64,000 nt of DNA. Origin: Chloroflexota bacterium. GTDB lineage: Bacteria; Chloroflexota; Limnocylindria; Limnocylindrales; CSP1-4. The DNA lies in the NCBI GenBank assembly GCA_016191345.1, contig JACPOU010000004.1, positions 38,932 through 102,931 on the forward strand. The letters run 5' to 3'. Positions 39,506 through 46,078 of this stretch are shown in pieces (within the stretch, counting starts at the first letter, position 1; every line of letters starts with the position of its first letter). A model generated the notes under the pieces. It searched no databases and was not told where the DNA came from. It saw nothing but the letters and a program-made list of their open reading frames with translations. Position numbers and translations under genes: made by a program.

Positions 39506-41341
39506 TTGGCCCTCGAGTCCTATCAGGAATTCCTCGTCCAGCCCGTCGACGCCTCGTGGTTGCAGTGCAACATCGAGTGCCAGGAGGCGTGCCCGGTCGG
39601 GACGAACTGCCGCGGCTACCTGAACCTCGCTGCCGAGGGGCGGTTCGAGGAGGGCTACATCCTGTCGCGCGAGCCGAACCCGGTTGCGGCGATGTGCTCG
39701 TACGTCTGTTCCGCACCCTGCGAGCGCGCCTGCCGGCGCGGCGACATCGACCGCCCGCTCGCGATCCGGGCGATGAAGCGCTTCCTCGTCGAGTGGCACG
39801 AGGCCTCCGGCATTCCCGACGTCATGCCCCACATCGAGGCGCGCGCCGAGCGCGTGGCGGTGGTCGGGGCGGGTCCGGCCGGGATCTCGGTGGCCCGCGA
39901 GCTCGCGATGAAGGGCTACGGGGTGGACGTCTTCGACAGCCTGCCCTACGGCGGCGGCACGATGCTCATCGGCGTCCCGGCGTTCCGCCTGCCGCGCGAG
40001 GCGATCGAGATGGACGTTCGCCTCGTGGAGCGCCTCGGTGTTCGCTTCCACTTCAACACGACGATCGGCCGGGAGGTCACGTTCGAGGACCTCCAGCGCG
40101 ACTACGACGCGATCGCGATCACCGCCGGGGCGATGAACGCGGTCGTCCTCGACGTGCCGGGCTCGGATCTCGACGGCGTCCAGTACGGCGTCGACTTCAT
40201 GAAGAAGGCGAATCTCGGCGAGGAGCTGACGGTCGGGCGCGACGTCGTCGTCATCGGCGGCGGCTACACCGCCATGGACTGCTCGCGGACCGCCCTCCGC
40301 CACGGTGCGGAGCGCGTCTCGATCGTCTACCGCCGGACGCGCTCCGAGCTGGTCGTCGACGAGGAGGAGCTGGGCGAGACGGAGCGCGAGGGCGTCCGGA
40401 TGGAGTTTCTCGCCAGTCCGGTCGAGGTCCTCGGCGAGGACGGCCACGTCACGGGCGTCAGGTTCGTCCGCAACCGCCTGGGCGCCCCGGATGCCTCCGG
40501 CCGGCGCTCGCCCGTCCCGATCGAGGGCTCCGAGTTCGTCATCCCGGCCGACGTCGTGATCCCCGCCGTCTCGCAGGCCGCCGACCTCACGTTCCTGCCG
40601 GTCGAGTCCTCGTTCGAGGTCAACCGCGGCCGGGTGAAGGTGGATCCGGCGACCTACGCCACGAACGTCCGGGGCGTGTTCGCCTGCGGCGACTTCGTGA
40701 CCGGTCCCACGACGCTCATCGAGGCCGCCGGCCACGGCAAGAAGGCGGCCTACGCGATCGACCGATACCTCGCCGGCCAGACCGACGTCACGGTCGCGGC
40801 GAACGTCAAGATCACCAGCTCGTGGCGCCACGACATGCCCGAGCTCTACGATGTCCTGCCGCGCCAGCACATCCCGATGGTCCCGCTGATGGAGCGCATG
40901 CCATCGACCGACCCAACGATCAACTTCTCGACCCCGGTGGAACTCGGCTACGACACGACGGGCGCGATCGCCGAGTCGACCCGCTGCCTGATGTGCAACT
41001 ACAACATCTGGTTCGACCCGTTCCGCTGCGTCCTGTGCGGCGCCTGTGCGGATGTCTGCCCCGAGGGCGTCATCCACATGGTCGACATCAACCAGCTGAA
41101 GGCGGAAGGCCTCCTGCCCGAGGTCGAAGAGGCCTATGGCTGGGAGAATGGAGCGGCGATGATCCTCGACGAGGAGCGCTGCATCCGCTGCGCCCTCTGC
41201 GTCAAGCGATGCCCCTTCGACGCCATTACGATGGAGCGGTTCGAGCTCCAGGAGGTCTCGAGCGACGGACGGCTCTACAAGGAGTCGTATCGAGATGCCC
41301 AGCTCGCCGGCACGGCCGGCGTGGCAGGAGGATCCAGGTGA
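39506..41341 (+). CDS. GltD-like FAD/NAD(P) oxidoreductase with N- and C-terminal Fe-S domains
   Basis: A 611-residue electron-transfer flavoprotein. Residues ~20-95 are a Fer4_20-type Fe-S domain (CNIECQEACPVGTNC, CSYVCSAPCERACRRG). A GltD-like core follows, with FAD site VVGAGPAGISVA and NAD(P) site VVIGGGYTAMDCSRTA, plus the FACGDFVTGP closing motif. The C-terminus carries CLMCNYN and two ferredoxin clusters, CVLCGACADVCPEG and CIRCALCVKRCPFDA. It probably transfers electrons from NAD(P)H, or from ferredoxin, toward the quinone/cytochrome complex encoded downstream. The start is TTG with GAGAAAGG upstream. Its stop overlaps the cytochrome b gene by four bases. Confidence 0.9.
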   Translation: MALESYQEFLVQPVDASWLQCNIECQEACPVGTNCRGYLNLAAEGRFEEGYILSREPNPVAAMCSYVCSAPCERACRRGDIDRPLAIRAMKRFLVEWHEASGIPDVMPHIEARAERVAVVGAGPAGISVARELAMKGYGVDVFDSLPYGGGTMLIGVPAFRLPREAIEMDVRLVERLGVRFHFNTTIGREVTFEDLQRDYDAIAITAGAMNAVVLDVPGSDLDGVQYGVDFMKKANLGEELTVGRDVVVIGGGYTAMDCSRTALRHGAERVSIVYRRTRSELVVDEEELGETEREGVRMEFLASPVEVLGEDGHVTGVRFVRNRLGAPDASGRRSPVPIEGSEFVIPADVVIPAVSQAADLTFLPVESSFEVNRGRVKVDPATYATNVRGVFACGDFVTGPTTLIEAAGHGKKAAYAIDRYLAGQTDVTVAANVKITSSWRHDMPELYDVLPRQHIPMVPLMERMPSTDPTINFSTPVELGYDTTGAIAESTRCLMCNYNIWFDPFRCVLCGACADVCPEGVIHMVDINQLKAEGLLPEVEEAYGWENGAAMILDEERCIRCALCVKRCPFDAITMERFELQEVSSDGRLYKESYRDAQLAGTAGVAGGSR

Positions 41342-42066
41342 GTTTCCTCGAGCGGGTGGACCTCTCCATCCGCCGCAGCCCGGTCTGGCGATCGCTGTTC
41401 CGCAACCCGTACCCCAACGACGAGCGGTCGCGCGCCTACGCCGTCATGAACAACGTCTTCCTGCACCTCCACCCGGTGCGGGTCCGGCAGCACGCCGTCA
41501 AGTTCGCCTACACGTTCTGTCTCGGCGGCCTGTCGTTCTTCCTGTTCCTCGTGCTCACCGTGACGGGCGTCTACCTGATGTTCTTCTACGTCCCCTCGGC
41601 GACGCAGGCGTACAGCGACATCCTGAACATCCAGACCCGGGTGACCTTCGGCCTGCTGACCCGGAACATCCACCGCTGGGGCGCCCACCTGATGGTGTTC
41701 TTCGTCTTCCTCCACATGATGCGGGTCTTCTACCACGGGGCCTACAAGCAGCCGCGCGAGTTCAACTGGGTGGTCGGGGTCCTGCTGCTGTTCCTGACCG
41801 TCGGCCTCAGCTTCACCGGCTACCTGCTGCCGTGGGACCAGATCTCCTACTGGGCGATCACGATCGGCTCGAACATGGCGGCCTACCTGCCGCTGATCAA
41901 CACGCCGTTCAAACTGGTCCTCCTCGGCGGCCTCGAGGTCGGCCAGAACACGCTGCTGCGGTTCTACGTGCTCCACATCATGGCCCTGCCCCTCATCACC
42001 GCCGTCTTCATGGCCGTCCACTTCTGGCGGATCCGGAAGGACGGAGGCATCAGCGGCCCGCTATGA
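41338..42066 (+). CDS. Cytochrome b6-type N-terminal subunit of bc complex
   Basis: A 242-residue four-helix cytochrome b. Two bis-His heme b sites are visible: HRWGAHLMVFFVFLH (14 residues apart) and HIMALPLITAVFMAVH (15 apart, as in b6 rather than mitochondrial b). Cys61 in YTFCLGGLSF aligns with the Cys of cytochrome b6 that covalently holds heme c_i, so an extra heme is likely. The Qo motif region GYLLPWDQISYWA is intact. GTG overlaps the oxidoreductase stop (GTGA), with AGGAGG upstream. It ends before a structured 120-bp intercistronic region. Confidence 0.94.
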   Translation: MSFLERVDLSIRRSPVWRSLFRNPYPNDERSRAYAVMNNVFLHLHPVRVRQHAVKFAYTFCLGGLSFFLFLVLTVTGVYLMFFYVPSATQAYSDILNIQTRVTFGLLTRNIHRWGAHLMVFFVFLHMMRVFYHGAYKQPREFNWVVGVLLLFLTVGLSFTGYLLPWDQISYWAITIGSNMAAYLPLINTPFKLVLLGGLEVGQNTLLRFYVLHIMALPLITAVFMAVHFWRIRKDGGISGPL

Positions 42067-42181
42067 CGACCCATCGGTGCGTTGTCACCTCCGTGCGCTC
42101 GCTCACGCACGTTCGAGTGCGCTCGCGAGCGTGCTCGGCTCCGCCTTCCGCTGGGCCCGTCCTGACGGGCCGCATGGGTCG
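42067..42181 (+). promoter_or_regulatory. Structured intercistronic region within the bc operon
   Basis: CGACCCAT (42067-42074) and ATGGGTCG (42174-42181) pair as the outer stem. Inside are a 12-bp palindrome CGCTCGCGAGCG and the hairpin GGCCCGTC/GACGGGCC. It replaces the usual zero spacing between the two cytochrome b halves. A role in mRNA processing or differential expression is possible. Confidence 0.55.
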
Positions 42182-42187
42182 GGACGC

Positions 42188-42811
42188 ATGAGCGACCAGA
42201 AGACGGACGAGACGGTCGAGGGCCGGCTCGTCCTGCCCGTCGACCCGACGCGGCGCACGGAGATCGACAAGCAGCGCGTGCCGATGTCGGCGCGGCCGTA
42301 CCGGCTGCTGGCGATGGTCAAGCAGGACGCCGTGGTCCGGGTCCAGAAGGAACCCGACGACACGGTCATGACCTGGCCGCACCTGCTCTCGATCGAGTTC
42401 CTCGCGGCCGGCGTCATGAGCGTCTTCCTGCTCCTGATGGGCCTGTTCATCAACGCCCCGCTCGAGGAGCTTGCCAACGGCAACGTGACCCCGGCCGTCG
42501 CCAAGGCGCCGTGGTACTTCCTGGGGCTCCAGGAGCTCCTCGCCTACTTCCACCCGGCGGTGGCCGGCGTCCTGGTCCCGACGTTCGCGATCGTGGGCAC
42601 GATGCTCATCCCCTACGTGGACCGCGGTGATCCCACGGCGATCGCGCCATCGCGGCGCAAGACCGCGGTCGTGCTCTTCTCACTCCTCCTGGGCCTCGCC
42701 CTCATGCTGACCTTCCTCGGCATCTTCTTCCGCGGCCCCGGCTACAGCTTCGTCATTCCCTACCTGCCGTTCTTCGAGAACAGCACCAACGGGCTCCACT
42801 TCTCCCTCTGA
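42188..42811 (+). CDS. Cytochrome bc complex subunit IV (C-terminal cytochrome b)
   Basis: A 207-residue homologue of cytochrome b6f subunit IV. A ~65-residue hydrophilic N-terminus (VQKEPDDTVMTWPHLL) precedes three helices. The Qo-site PEWY motif reads APWYFLGLQELL, so the catalytic Glu is replaced by Pro. ATG 42188 begins the conserved part; the track start at 42077 would translate the structured intercistronic region. It pairs with the b6-type subunit to rebuild a full cytochrome b. Confidence 0.9.
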   Translation: MSDQKTDETVEGRLVLPVDPTRRTEIDKQRVPMSARPYRLLAMVKQDAVVRVQKEPDDTVMTWPHLLSIEFLAAGVMSVFLLLMGLFINAPLEELANGNVTPAVAKAPWYFLGLQELLAYFHPAVAGVLVPTFAIVGTMLIPYVDRGDPTAIAPSRRKTAVVLFSLLLGLALMLTFLGIFFRGPGYSFVIPYLPFFENSTNGLHFSL

Positions 42812-42838: not shown

Positions 42839-43513
42839 ATGAGCAACTACCACGTTGAACCGATCGACAGGCCGCAGGCCCTCACCTCGGCGGCACTGAA
42901 GAGCCAGCGCCAGCATCCCGTGCAGGGCATCTCGCGACGCCGGCTGCTGCGATTGTCGCTTGGCGGCGGGATCGCCCTCTGGCTCACCGAGATCGCCGGC
43001 GGGACGCTGAACTTCCTGTGGCCGAACCTCGAGGGCGGCTTCGGTGGCATCGTGAAGATCGGAACCCTCGCCGACGTCAAGCTCAAGAACTCCAATCTGC
43101 CCATTGCGGATGGGTTCCCGGCGTACTTCCCCGATGCTCGCGCGTTCATCGTCCTCGTCGACCCATCGCGGCAGCAGTTCGTTCCCGGCACGGACACGGT
43201 CGGCGAAGGCACCGCCCTGAACGTTCGAGCGCTCTACCAGCGCTGCCCGCACCTCGGCTGCAAGCCGAATCCCTGCCTCAAGAACTTCTGGCTGGAGTGT
43301 CCCTGCCATGGCTCCCGCTACGACCGGCTGGGGATCAAGGCGCAGGGCGCTGCCTACGGGCCAGCGCCGCGCAGCATGGACCGCTTCTCCGCGACCGTGG
43401 AGGCGGACGGGACCCTCGTCCTGGACACCTCCAAGATCACGCTCGGCCCGCTGCCCATCGCGATCGGCCAGCCGGGAATCATCCCGCCGAAGAGCCCGAC
43501 GGGCTGCATCTAG
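42839..43513 (+). CDS. Rieske iron-sulfur protein
   Basis: A 224-residue Rieske subunit. A Tat-type signal anchor (ISRRRLLRLSLGGGIALWL) is followed by a 2Fe-2S domain with box 1 CPHLGC and box 2 CPCHGSRYD. The two boxes are separated by a short loop containing another Cys (KPNPCLKNFWLE), and the protein ends in a further Cys (PTGCI). It accepts electrons from quinol at the Qo site and passes them to the cytochrome c protein encoded next. The ATG lies 27 bp after subunit IV. Confidence 0.95.
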   Translation: MSNYHVEPIDRPQALTSAALKSQRQHPVQGISRRRLLRLSLGGGIALWLTEIAGGTLNFLWPNLEGGFGGIVKIGTLADVKLKNSNLPIADGFPAYFPDARAFIVLVDPSRQQFVPGTDTVGEGTALNVRALYQRCPHLGCKPNPCLKNFWLECPCHGSRYDRLGIKAQGAAYGPAPRSMDRFSATVEADGTLVLDTSKITLGPLPIAIGQPGIIPPKSPTGCI

Positions 43514-43549: not shown

Positions 43550-44602
43550 ATGACCGACAAGTCCGGCCGCGAGCCGGAGCAGCGCCTGCCCGCCCGCCGC
43601 GAGCCGAGCACCCCGGCCCCCGCGGACCGCTTCACGGCCCCGGCGAGCGCCCACCCGCCGGAGCTCAGCCCGGAACGGGCGGCGCGCATCGTCCGCCAGT
43701 CCGCGAGCGCCCGCTGGGTCGGCTTCCTCGTCGTCTGCGTCGTCGTCCTCTTCACCATCGTCTACTACTTCTACGAGGTCGGCGCGCCGCTGGGCCTCTC
43801 CAAGCCGCGCCTCGACGCCCAGGCGGAGCAACAGCAGGTGACCGCGGTCGTCCGCGGCTACAACCTCTACCAGGCCAACTGCGCCCGTTGCCACGGCCCC
43901 AACGGCAAGTGCACCGCGGAGGGCTACATCGCCCCGCCGCTCAACGACCAGTCGAAACTCTTCGCGCACCTCAGCGCGCAGTACCTGAAGAACGTCCTCA
44001 CGGTCGGCGGCCGATACGTCTGCGGCAACGCGAACAGCCTGATGCCCGTCTGGGCGGACACGAACGGCGGGCCCCTGAACTACCGTCAGATCGAGGAGCT
44101 CATCGCCTTCATCCGCGCGCCATCGACCCAGGAGTACGTCATCCGGAACCCGGAGCTGAACGAGCCGGTCCTGGATGCGAACGGCAAGGCCAAGACCTTC
44201 AAGGGCTGGCTGGATCCCGCGTACAAGCCGGATCCCTCGGCGACCCCGGTTCCGGCCTGCTACCTCGGCGACGGCGGCGCCCAGCCGACCCAGGGGCCCA
44301 CGGTCCCGCCGGACACCCAGACCGTCGCCGTCACCGCCGAGGGCATCGCCTTCGACGTGACCCAGCTGACGGTCGACGCGGGCAAGGACTTCGCCATCGA
44401 CTTCATCCAGAAGGACGCTGGCGTCGGCGGCCACAACGTCGAGATCCGGGCCCAGGACGGGACGAGCCTCTTCAAGGGCGCCGTCCTGAACGACCCGGGC
44501 GAGACGACCTATCTCGTGCCGAAGCTGGCCCCCGGCACGTATGTCTTCATCTGCTCCGTCCACCCCATTCCGGCGATGACCGGCACGCTCACCGTCAAGT
44601 AG
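43550..44602 (+). CDS. Membrane-anchored cytochrome c fused to a cupredoxin domain
   Basis: A 350-residue protein. One transmembrane helix (WVGFLVVCVVVLFTIVYYF) follows a Pro-rich cytosolic N-terminus. The monoheme cytochrome c has CARCHG and a probable Met ligand in NSLMPVW. The C-terminal ~100 residues form a blue-copper domain with the ligand set His (GGHNVEI), Cys-His (ICSVHPIPAM) and Met. The fusion would pass electrons from Rieske through heme c to Cu within one chain, toward an oxidase or other acceptor. In the operon it follows Rieske by 36 bp. Confidence 0.93.
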   Translation: MTDKSGREPEQRLPARREPSTPAPADRFTAPASAHPPELSPERAARIVRQSASARWVGFLVVCVVVLFTIVYYFYEVGAPLGLSKPRLDAQAEQQQVTAVVRGYNLYQANCARCHGPNGKCTAEGYIAPPLNDQSKLFAHLSAQYLKNVLTVGGRYVCGNANSLMPVWADTNGGPLNYRQIEELIAFIRAPSTQEYVIRNPELNEPVLDANGKAKTFKGWLDPAYKPDPSATPVPACYLGDGGAQPTQGPTVPPDTQTVAVTAEGIAFDVTQLTVDAGKDFAIDFIQKDAGVGGHNVEIRAQDGTSLFKGAVLNDPGETTYLVPKLAPGTYVFICSVHPIPAMTGTLTVK

Positions 44603-44611
44603 GCAGGGACG

Positions 44612-46078
44612 ATGACGCAGGCACGCAGCGGCGGGACCCGGATCGGGCGCAAACGCGCCCTCATGGGCCTCCTCGATGCCGACGGCTGGAGCTGGGCGGG
44701 CCTCAAGGCGTTCTTCTGGTTCATCGTCCTGATCTTCTTTCTGGCCTACCTGCCGGATCGGGCCTACTACTTCACGGTGAACCGGACGATCGACCTCGGG
44801 CTGCTGGCCTGGTCGCCGGTCAACCTCTGCCCTCCCGCCAACAAGACCCTGCCCTGTCCCGCGCCCGTCGGCGCCGTCATCCCCTGGGAGGCGAGCCCCA
44901 GCGGCCTGAACCTCCCCGCGCCCCGCGTCAATGCCGCCGCGGCGCAGCTCGGCACGCGTCTCGTGCTCGCCGGCGGGACGGACGGCGCGGCCGCCACCAC
45001 GACGACCTACATCGCGAACCTCAAGGACGGCAACTTCGACGCCTGGACCGAGGGGCCAGCCCTGCCGGAGCCCCGGAGCAGCGCGTCGCTCGTCGTCATC
45101 GGGAGCACCGCGTATCTCCTCGGCGGCGCGGACGCGGCTGGCAAGCCGACGGACACGATCTGGTCGATGACCGTCGATTCCGAGACGTCCGCGCTCGGGG
45201 CCTGGACGCCGGTCGAGGGCCTGACCCTCCCGGAGCCACGCACCGGTGCGTCCGCGCTGTCCGTCTCGGACGGGCTCGTCGTCGTCGGCGGGCGGGGTGC
45301 CGACGGAGCCCCGACCGCGACCACCTGGAAGTCGACGCTCGGCCTCAAGGGCGGCAAGCCCACCCTCGGCCAGTTCGAGAAGGGCGCGGATCTCCTCCAG
45401 CCCGTTGCCGACGCCTCGATCACCCAGGTCGGCGACTACCTCTGGGTCCTCGGCGGCTCCGACGCCAACGGACCGGTCGGCGCGATCCAGCGCGGCACGA
45501 TCGCGACCGTGCCCGTCCCGGAGACGCCCGCCCCGAACGCGACACCGGCGCCGCTCGCCCTGCTCCAATGGGCGGTCGCGGATGCCTACAACCTGCCGGC
45601 CGGGCGGACCTCGGCCGCGGGCTTCGGGGCGAACGGCACGCTCTACGTCGTCGGTGGCAACGACGGCACGGGGCCGCGCAGGGAGCTCTACTGGTCCGTC
45701 CCCAACGGCGACGGCACGCTGCCGGGCTGGAAGCACCTCGCCCAGACGGACCTGCCGTCGGGTCTCGAGGGTGCCTCGCCGCTCGTCTTCGGCTCGAGCG
45801 CGTTCATCATCGGCGGCACGACTGCGGACGGGCCGCTCTCGAGCGCCGTCAGGGCGAACCTCGCCCCGCAGGAGCCGTTCTTCCAGGCCGGCCTCGTCGG
45901 GCTCGTGGTGCCCGCGCTCAAGATCGACGGCGAGATCGGCCAGCAGTTGGGCTACCTGAGCGCGGCCGGCCTCGGCACGGTCAACGGCATCATCCTGCTG
46001 CTGATCGGCTGGGCGTACAACCACAAGCCCCAGGTCCGGGCCTGGGTGGATCGCCGCCGGGCTCGCCGCCGGGGCTGA
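44612..46078 (+). CDS. Membrane-anchored six-Kelch-repeat protein of the bc operon
   Basis: A 488-residue protein with an N-terminal helix (LKAFFWFIVLIFFLAYL), a C-terminal helix (GTVNGIILLLIGWAY) and a basic tail. Between them are six Kelch-type repeats, each with a GG doublet (LVLAGGTDG, YLLGGADAAG, VVVGGRGADG, WVLGGSDANG, YVVGGNDG, FIIGGTTADG), enough for a closed propeller facing outside. It begins 9 bp after the cytochrome c-cupredoxin gene, with GCAGGGA upstream. No enzymatic motif is seen. It may be an accessory subunit or docking partner of the bc complex. Confidence 0.85.
   Translation: MTQARSGGTRIGRKRALMGLLDADGWSWAGLKAFFWFIVLIFFLAYLPDRAYYFTVNRTIDLGLLAWSPVNLCPPANKTLPCPAPVGAVIPWEASPSGLNLPAPRVNAAAAQLGTRLVLAGGTDGAAATTTTYIANLKDGNFDAWTEGPALPEPRSSASLVVIGSTAYLLGGADAAGKPTDTIWSMTVDSETSALGAWTPVEGLTLPEPRTGASALSVSDGLVVVGGRGADGAPTATTWKSTLGLKGGKPTLGQFEKGADLLQPVADASITQVGDYLWVLGGSDANGPVGAIQRGTIATVPVPETPAPNATPAPLALLQWAVADAYNLPAGRTSAAGFGANGTLYVVGGNDGTGPRRELYWSVPNGDGTLPGWKHLAQTDLPSGLEGASPLVFGSSAFIIGGTTADGPLSSAVRANLAPQEPFFQAGLVGLVVPALKIDGEIGQQLGYLSAAGLGTVNGIILLLIGWAYNHKPQVRAWVDRRRARRRG

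Follow-up and report, generated by a model that had tools for sequence, protein, structure and literature searches.

A membrane-anchored Kelch propeller, probably a lineage-specific subunit of the b6f-like Rieske/cytochrome b complex of Limnocylindrales

The operon and the protein encoded by its last gene

The window analyzed here, a continuous stretch of 64,000 nucleotides from a Chloroflexota bacterium of the order Limnocylindrales, carries a six-gene operon encoding, in this order, an oxidoreductase, a cytochrome b6-like protein, a subunit IV-like protein, a Rieske protein, a cytochrome c-cupredoxin and a Kelch protein, the gene of which closes the operon (Table 1). The order is kept in relatives. 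The oxidoreductase, 79-94% identical to its counterparts in relatives, matches NfnA and Nfn subunits in the PDB with E-values from 9e-107 to 4e-79, and its stop codon is overlapped by the GTG start of the cytochrome b6-like gene. The product of the latter scores 296.6 bits against the NCBIfam model ExtP (cut-off 290), which refers to selenite/tellurite reduction operons; subunit IV gives a weak match to ExtQ. The ExtP name may be misleading here. Some 120 noncoding bases (42067-42187) separate the cytochrome b6-like and subunit IV genes, a gap that is similar in some relatives and missing from others, and at its quinol site subunit IV has the motif KAPWYFLGLQELL in place of PEWY. In relatives, the cytochrome c-cupredoxin has one CxxCH and a copper-ligand motif.

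Table 1. Genes of the operon and segments of the Kelch protein, in window coordinates
Feature	Position	Strand	Basis
NAD(P)/FAD oxidoreductase with 4Fe-4S clusters (GltD/NfnL-like), operon gene 1	39506..41341	+	Pfam Pyr_redox_2, Fer4_20, Fer4
Four-helix cytochrome b6-like subunit	41338..42066	+	Pfam Cytochrome_B, E 1.4e-47; NCBIfam cytochrome b6
Subunit IV-like C-terminal cytochrome b, ATG start	42188..42811	+	Pfam Cytochrom_B_C, E 7.7e-8
Rieske iron-sulfur protein	42839..43513	+	Pfam Rieske, E 1.8e-7; NCBIfam PetC-like
Membrane-anchored monoheme cytochrome c fused to cupredoxin	43550..44602	+	Pfam Cytochrom_C, Cupredoxin_1
Kelch-propeller subunit gene (probable subunit), ATG start, 488 aa	44612..46078	+	Pfam, AlphaFold2, Foldseek
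Conserved N-terminal interface, helix 1 and LAYLPDRAYYFTV motif, residues 23-66	44678..44809	+	Invariant columns; homologous to sister helix 1
Outer-side stalk with invariant C73 and C82, residues 73-82	44828..44857	+	Invariant in 24/24
Six-bladed Kelch propeller, residues 92-418	44885..45865	+	Pfam; AlphaFold2, pLDDT mostly > 90; Foldseek
Conserved C-terminal stalk (PFFQ.GL.G..VPAL.I.GEIGQQLGYL) and helix 2, residues 419-468	45866..46015	+	Homologous to sister helix 2

A first-pass annotation of this DNA had spoken of a bc operon. The Rieske/cytochrome b assignment stands, but the plain bc type does not: the core resembles that of the NAD(P)-oxidoreductase-containing Rieske/cytochrome b complexes of Kuenenia stuttgartiensis (Kustd1480-1485 and Kuste4569-4574; PMC12954380), so the complex is to be read as b6f-like, with an NAD(P)-oxidoreductase gene, and not as a plain bc1. 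Common to both are a four-helix b6-like cytochrome b, subunit IV, a Rieske protein and an NAD(P) oxidoreductase with iron-sulfur clusters. On the outer face, in contrast, the Kuenenia complexes have hexa- or octaheme cytochromes c where the operon studied here encodes a monoheme cytochrome c-cupredoxin and the Kelch protein. The cytochrome b, subunit IV and Rieske core is also that of cytochrome b6f and bc1, but the open-access literature yielded no Kelch or propeller subunit of these complexes and no Kelch subunit of any Rieske/cytochrome b complex, in line with the earlier statement that Kelch propellers are not known as bc-complex subunits. Extra lineage-specific membrane subunits are a familiar theme in b6f and bc1 complexes; to our knowledge, none of them is a Kelch or other propeller protein.

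The Kelch reading frame begins 9 bases past the stop codon of the cytochrome c-cupredoxin gene and is present as a single copy in its genome. Its product exceeds the curated cut-offs of two Pfam Kelch models (PF24681, 65.8 bits against 50; PF01344, 52.7 against 20.1) and contains six hydrophobic-hydrophobic-Gly-Gly motifs, at residues 121, 171, 226, 281, 348 and 401, as compared to a mean of 0.96 in 10,000 shuffled versions (P = 0.0002). The six repeats had been recognized before, with a spacing given as 55-75 residues; the measured intervals are 50, 55, 55, 67 and 53 residues, hence 50-67. An AlphaFold2 model built from a family alignment of 24 sequences (A1) places a six-bladed propeller, with pLDDT mostly above 90, between helices at residues 26-56 and 441-470, the anchor helices themselves being modeled with low confidence from this alignment. 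The Foldseek matches of the model include six-bladed Kelch domains, with TMt values of about 0.8 (0.84 for 5yy8, 0.80 for KLHL12). The protein thus combines the features of the Kelch superfamily, double-glycine repeats with spaced aromatic residues and a closed propeller fold as predicted, and the first-pass description of a six-bladed Kelch propeller with membrane helices at both ends is borne out by Pfam, the motifs, the model and the structural matches. The tryptophan pattern in the alignment and the model implies that closure would be effected by an N-terminal strand, with W92 giving the outer strand of blade 6. KLHL12, NS1-BP, LZTR1 and the designed protein SAKe6 have the same fold and the same double-glycine repeats; unlike the window protein, which is anchored in the membrane at both ends with a propeller predicted to lie outside, they are either adaptor domains of the cytosol or designed proteins. 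This orientation, already proposed on first inspection, agrees with the model and with the distribution of charge: both ends of the protein are basic (5 and 8 Lys plus Arg residues) and the long middle is not, which would place the N and C termini in the cytoplasm and the propeller outside. It also agrees with the ancestry of the anchors described below.

Conservation within the family is uneven. The major residue of a column reaches a frequency of 0.67-0.84 in the anchors and stalks, most of which are the better conserved parts, against 0.58 in the propeller; it peaks (0.71-0.84) at the interfacial start, in helix 1, in the stalks and at the start of helix 2. The invariant residues of the propeller are fold residues. 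Outside them, the family alignment shows no invariant surface patch of the kind that a specific docking face might show, and the propeller has no conserved histidine, no conserved cysteine and no conserved set of metal-binding or catalytic residues. The invariant cysteines are confined to the stalk, where C73 and C82, judging from their invariance, are likely to form a disulfide.

This pattern bears on the idea that the protein is an outer-face binding protein or enzyme, acting on a sugar or wall polymer or as a copper-radical oxidase or mutarotase, which feeds or senses and is merely co-transcribed with the complex. Bacterial Kelch propellers do include NanM-type mutarotases and galactose oxidases, and weak matches to the NANM and YjhT models were obtained. 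We consider this reading very improbable: conservation in the propeller is among the lowest in the protein, and neither a scan of 84,980 species genomes nor the genomes of the order yielded a full-length copy outside the operon. As to the individual candidates, a NanM/YjhT mutarotase was rejected on scores of 24 bits for YjhT (cut-off 256.35) and 27.5 for NANM (cut-off 45), and a galactose oxidase or copper-radical oxidase on the absence of the His/Tyr/Cys set (the ligands Tyr, Tyr, His and His, and the Cys-Tyr cross-link).

Distribution of the Kelch gene and its linkage to the Rieske/cytochrome b genes

A motif scan of the 84,980 species genomes returned 73 loci, nearly all in Chloroflexota metagenome-assembled genomes, including Candidatus Limnocylindrus and Aquidulcis; one lies in an assembly labeled Thermoflexus and one in an assembly labeled Anaerolinea. 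The family does not extend beyond the order Limnocylindrales. Had homologues been common in genomes without bc genes, this would have spoken against a dedicated role in the complex; the scan gave no such picture, and matches elsewhere in the phylum were set aside as ordinary Kelch proteins, given that they span only the propeller. The best of the non-orthologous matches is a 1178-aa frame with several Kelch stretches in another family of the phylum (G194:C15:35601-37688). A contig-end fragment 62% identical to the window's Kelch gene sits in a bin of the sister family (L201, G172:C57, 3424-3663, minus strand) and is probably a bin contaminant. No relative of the protein was found in viral contigs.

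Wherever the sequence at the 73 loci reaches far enough upstream, the Kelch gene is preceded by the cytochrome c gene (62/62), the Rieske gene (53/53) and the cytochrome b gene (47/47), and in 40 of 41 cases by the oxidoreductase gene. Across 126 Limnocylindrales genomes, mostly metagenome assemblies, Kelch and Rieske genes occur together in 83 and are both missing from 34; four have Kelch only and five Rieske only (Fisher P = 5e-21, a value that ignores phylogeny). All nine mismatches were inspected. The four Kelch-only genomes have contigs cut at the upstream end, and the Rieske-only genomes comprise four in which the contig ends at the cytochrome c gene and one with a stray Rieske gene on a short contig. 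Contig cuts and the stray Rieske aside, the Kelch protein is always encoded with the core Rieske/cytochrome b genes, and the comparison of presence and absence proposed with the first-pass annotation thus comes out in favor of a dedicated association. In L182, L183, L186 and L187, the assembly is broken within the cytochrome c-cupredoxin gene or shortly behind it, immediately ahead of the Kelch gene, so that a presence/absence table would show the latter as missing. At L189, L190, L191, L193, L194, L195 and L196, second Rieske genes (53-73% identical) occur without cytochrome b neighbors.

Limnocylindrales comprises two families, which appear to be those named CSP1-4 and Limnocylindraceae (an assignment based in part on PMC13212565), and the Kelch gene is retained in the genomes of about 1 Mb found in the second family of the order. 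The genomes with neither gene include most or all of one genus (g3; for instance G016, G087, G088, G098, G102 and G104). The oxidase gene COX1 is absent from all six genomes of this genus tested and present in all nine Kelch-bearing genomes tested, which suggests that the genus, in which Rieske and Kelch are missing as well, has lost the aerobic chain.

A propeller-free counterpart in the sister family

The operon is also found in a sister family of the same class (f4), where the slot of the Kelch gene is occupied by a gene for a 193-aa, four-helix protein without a propeller (alignment A2; for example L205:1501-2079, minus strand); in 18 genomes of this family the gap from the Rieske gene to this gene measures 855-1172 bases. 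The N-terminal consensus of the sister protein, LKGVPLFLFVYFxLTYVPNYVYY, compares with LKAFFWFIVLIFFLAYLPDRAYY in the window protein. Profile comparison with hhalign aligns the helix within Kelch residues 23-66 with sister helix 1 (E 1.3e-5). Taken alone, the N-terminal segment matches helix 1 with an E-value of 1.9e-6, and the C-terminal segment matches helix 2 with an E-value of 4.9e-5 and a moderate probability of 67.7, pairing VPALKIDGEIGQQLGYLSAAGLGTVNG with a consensus like LPFLRFSDDVGFLVANGVGGGNF; shuffled and reversed controls fell well below both. When the propeller is omitted, a single alignment runs through helix 1, loop and helix 2 (probability 96.4, E 1.4e-9), and its score of 60.6 is far above the highest values from 200 column shuffles (23.8) and from four other subunits (21.5). 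The two Kelch anchors are homologous, in order, to the first two helices of the sister protein. Most likely they represent one old helical hairpin, split by an insertion.

That the likeness is coincidental, the Kelch protein being an unrelated newcomer that took the place of the four-helix subunit, seems to us highly unlikely. It is true that transmembrane segments are prone to false matches, that the two proteins differ in overall length and fold, and that sister helices 3 and 4 find no counterpart in the Kelch protein, which has only a basic tail beyond helix 2. Yet the two anchors pair with successive sister helices and in the expected order, the shuffled, reversed and other-subunit controls lie far below, and the sister profile, when run blind against 400 genomes from the phylum, retrieved only the sister family itself and the N-termini of seven Kelch reading frames.

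Returning to common descent, an AlphaFold2 model of the sister protein consists of four long helices, with a turn of 4 residues between helices 1 and 2 marking the probable insertion point; where the sister protein has this short loop and two further helices, the Limnocylindrales protein has a propeller. (A Foldseek search of the PDB with the sister subunit returned nothing convincing.) Most likely, then, an existing subunit acquired the propeller within its 4-residue outer hairpin, and the change very probably went in this direction, by insertion and not by loss. The simplest history would have the propeller enter the turn, with loss of helices 3 and 4 or with their gain in the sister lineage. 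In one genome each of two other families of the class (f3 and f5), the operon is present and neither protein was recognized, which leaves the ancestral state resting on one sister family. In a third family (L200), the Kelch slot holds a 163-aa reading frame, which was considered and found to be related to neither the Kelch nor the sister protein.

The outer electron-exit side of the complex

Taken as a whole, the evidence makes it probable that the Kelch protein is a lineage-specific integral subunit of the b6f-like complex, which arose by insertion and may serve as an outer docking platform. The parts of this proposal differ in strength. The protein belongs physically to the complex in all likelihood, considering its unbroken linkage to the operon and the descent of its anchors. 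Conserved anchors and stalks around a variable propeller devoid of a catalytic set are what one would expect if the hairpin sits in the complex and the propeller acts as a scaffold. In this reading, the propeller entered a small membrane subunit of the operon at the short outer turn that joins its first two helices; the old hairpin would still seat the protein in the complex, and the propeller would hang at the outer face on two stalks meeting at one blade.

What the propeller would do there is suggested by its neighbor. The operon cytochrome c has one heme and a cupredoxin in all 63 Limnocylindrales sequences and two hemes without a cupredoxin in all 18 from the sister family; it would appear that, in parallel with the gain of the propeller, the Limnocylindrales protein exchanged a heme domain for a cupredoxin. 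The two changes amount to one coincidence at the level of a lineage, not to repeated events. In addition, the terminal oxidase (L203, G000:C19, 5986-7092 and 2400-3476, minus strand) includes a CoxII and a subunit IV-like protein that each bear an extra C-terminal cupredoxin. A specific link between the propeller and the CoxII cupredoxin was rejected, as CoxII-cupredoxin fusions occur both in Limnocylindrales and in the sister family, which has no propeller. Together, the scaffold-like conservation, the swap in cytochrome c and the cupredoxins of CoxII favor a role in docking or positioning at the outer electron exit. We tentatively propose that the propeller is a non-catalytic platform whose task would be to retain or guide the tethered cytochrome c-cupredoxin domain, the cupredoxin-bearing terminal oxidase, or both.

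As a variant of this role, the propeller might bind chiefly the terminal oxidase and so tether a supercomplex. Accessory subunits act in this way in the III-IV supercomplexes of actinobacteria, in the genomes tested the COX1 gene accompanies the Kelch gene and is missing from the bc-less genus as described above, and the oxidase offers cupredoxins on two of its proteins. Since the oxidase genes lie away from the Kelch operon and CoxII-cupredoxin occurs without a propeller, a tether in this narrower sense strikes us as possible, if doubtful. It is also worth considering that the protein might be an assembly or maturation factor, which helps the complex to take up its heme c, its copper or its Rieske protein and then departs. 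Its gene comes last in the operon, directly after that of the heme- and copper-binding protein and strictly linked to it, and the new cupredoxin domain would need to be loaded with copper. Such a factor is nonetheless unlikely: the propeller lacks conserved metal ligands, with no conserved histidine and with invariant cysteines in the stalk only; the anchors derive from the gene of a subunit that exists without the cupredoxin; and the sister family has CoxII cupredoxins without having the Kelch protein.

If docking is the function of the propeller, the swap of the heme domain for a cupredoxin and the gain of the propeller could be two sides of a new electron-exit module on the outer face, in which the propeller would steer the copper domain between the Rieske protein or heme c and the oxidase. 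This last step is more speculative still; were it true, this would be the first case of a propeller on a subunit of any Rieske/cytochrome b complex. A natural before-and-after pair, the sister family and the Limnocylindrales, is available for direct tests of what the propeller and the cupredoxin do.

Few energy converters are as conserved as the Rieske/cytochrome b complexes. Here, a bulky new subunit would have arisen by domain insertion and become fixed across an order, and it is kept even in the streamlined freshwater genomes of about 1 Mb of Candidatus Limnocylindrus and Aquidulcis. That the Kelch gene is retained with the respiratory complex in genomes this small suggests that its product is a subunit, not described before, of machinery central to energy conservation. 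Such a subunit would show that the outer, electron-exit side of Rieske/cytochrome b complexes can be rebuilt.
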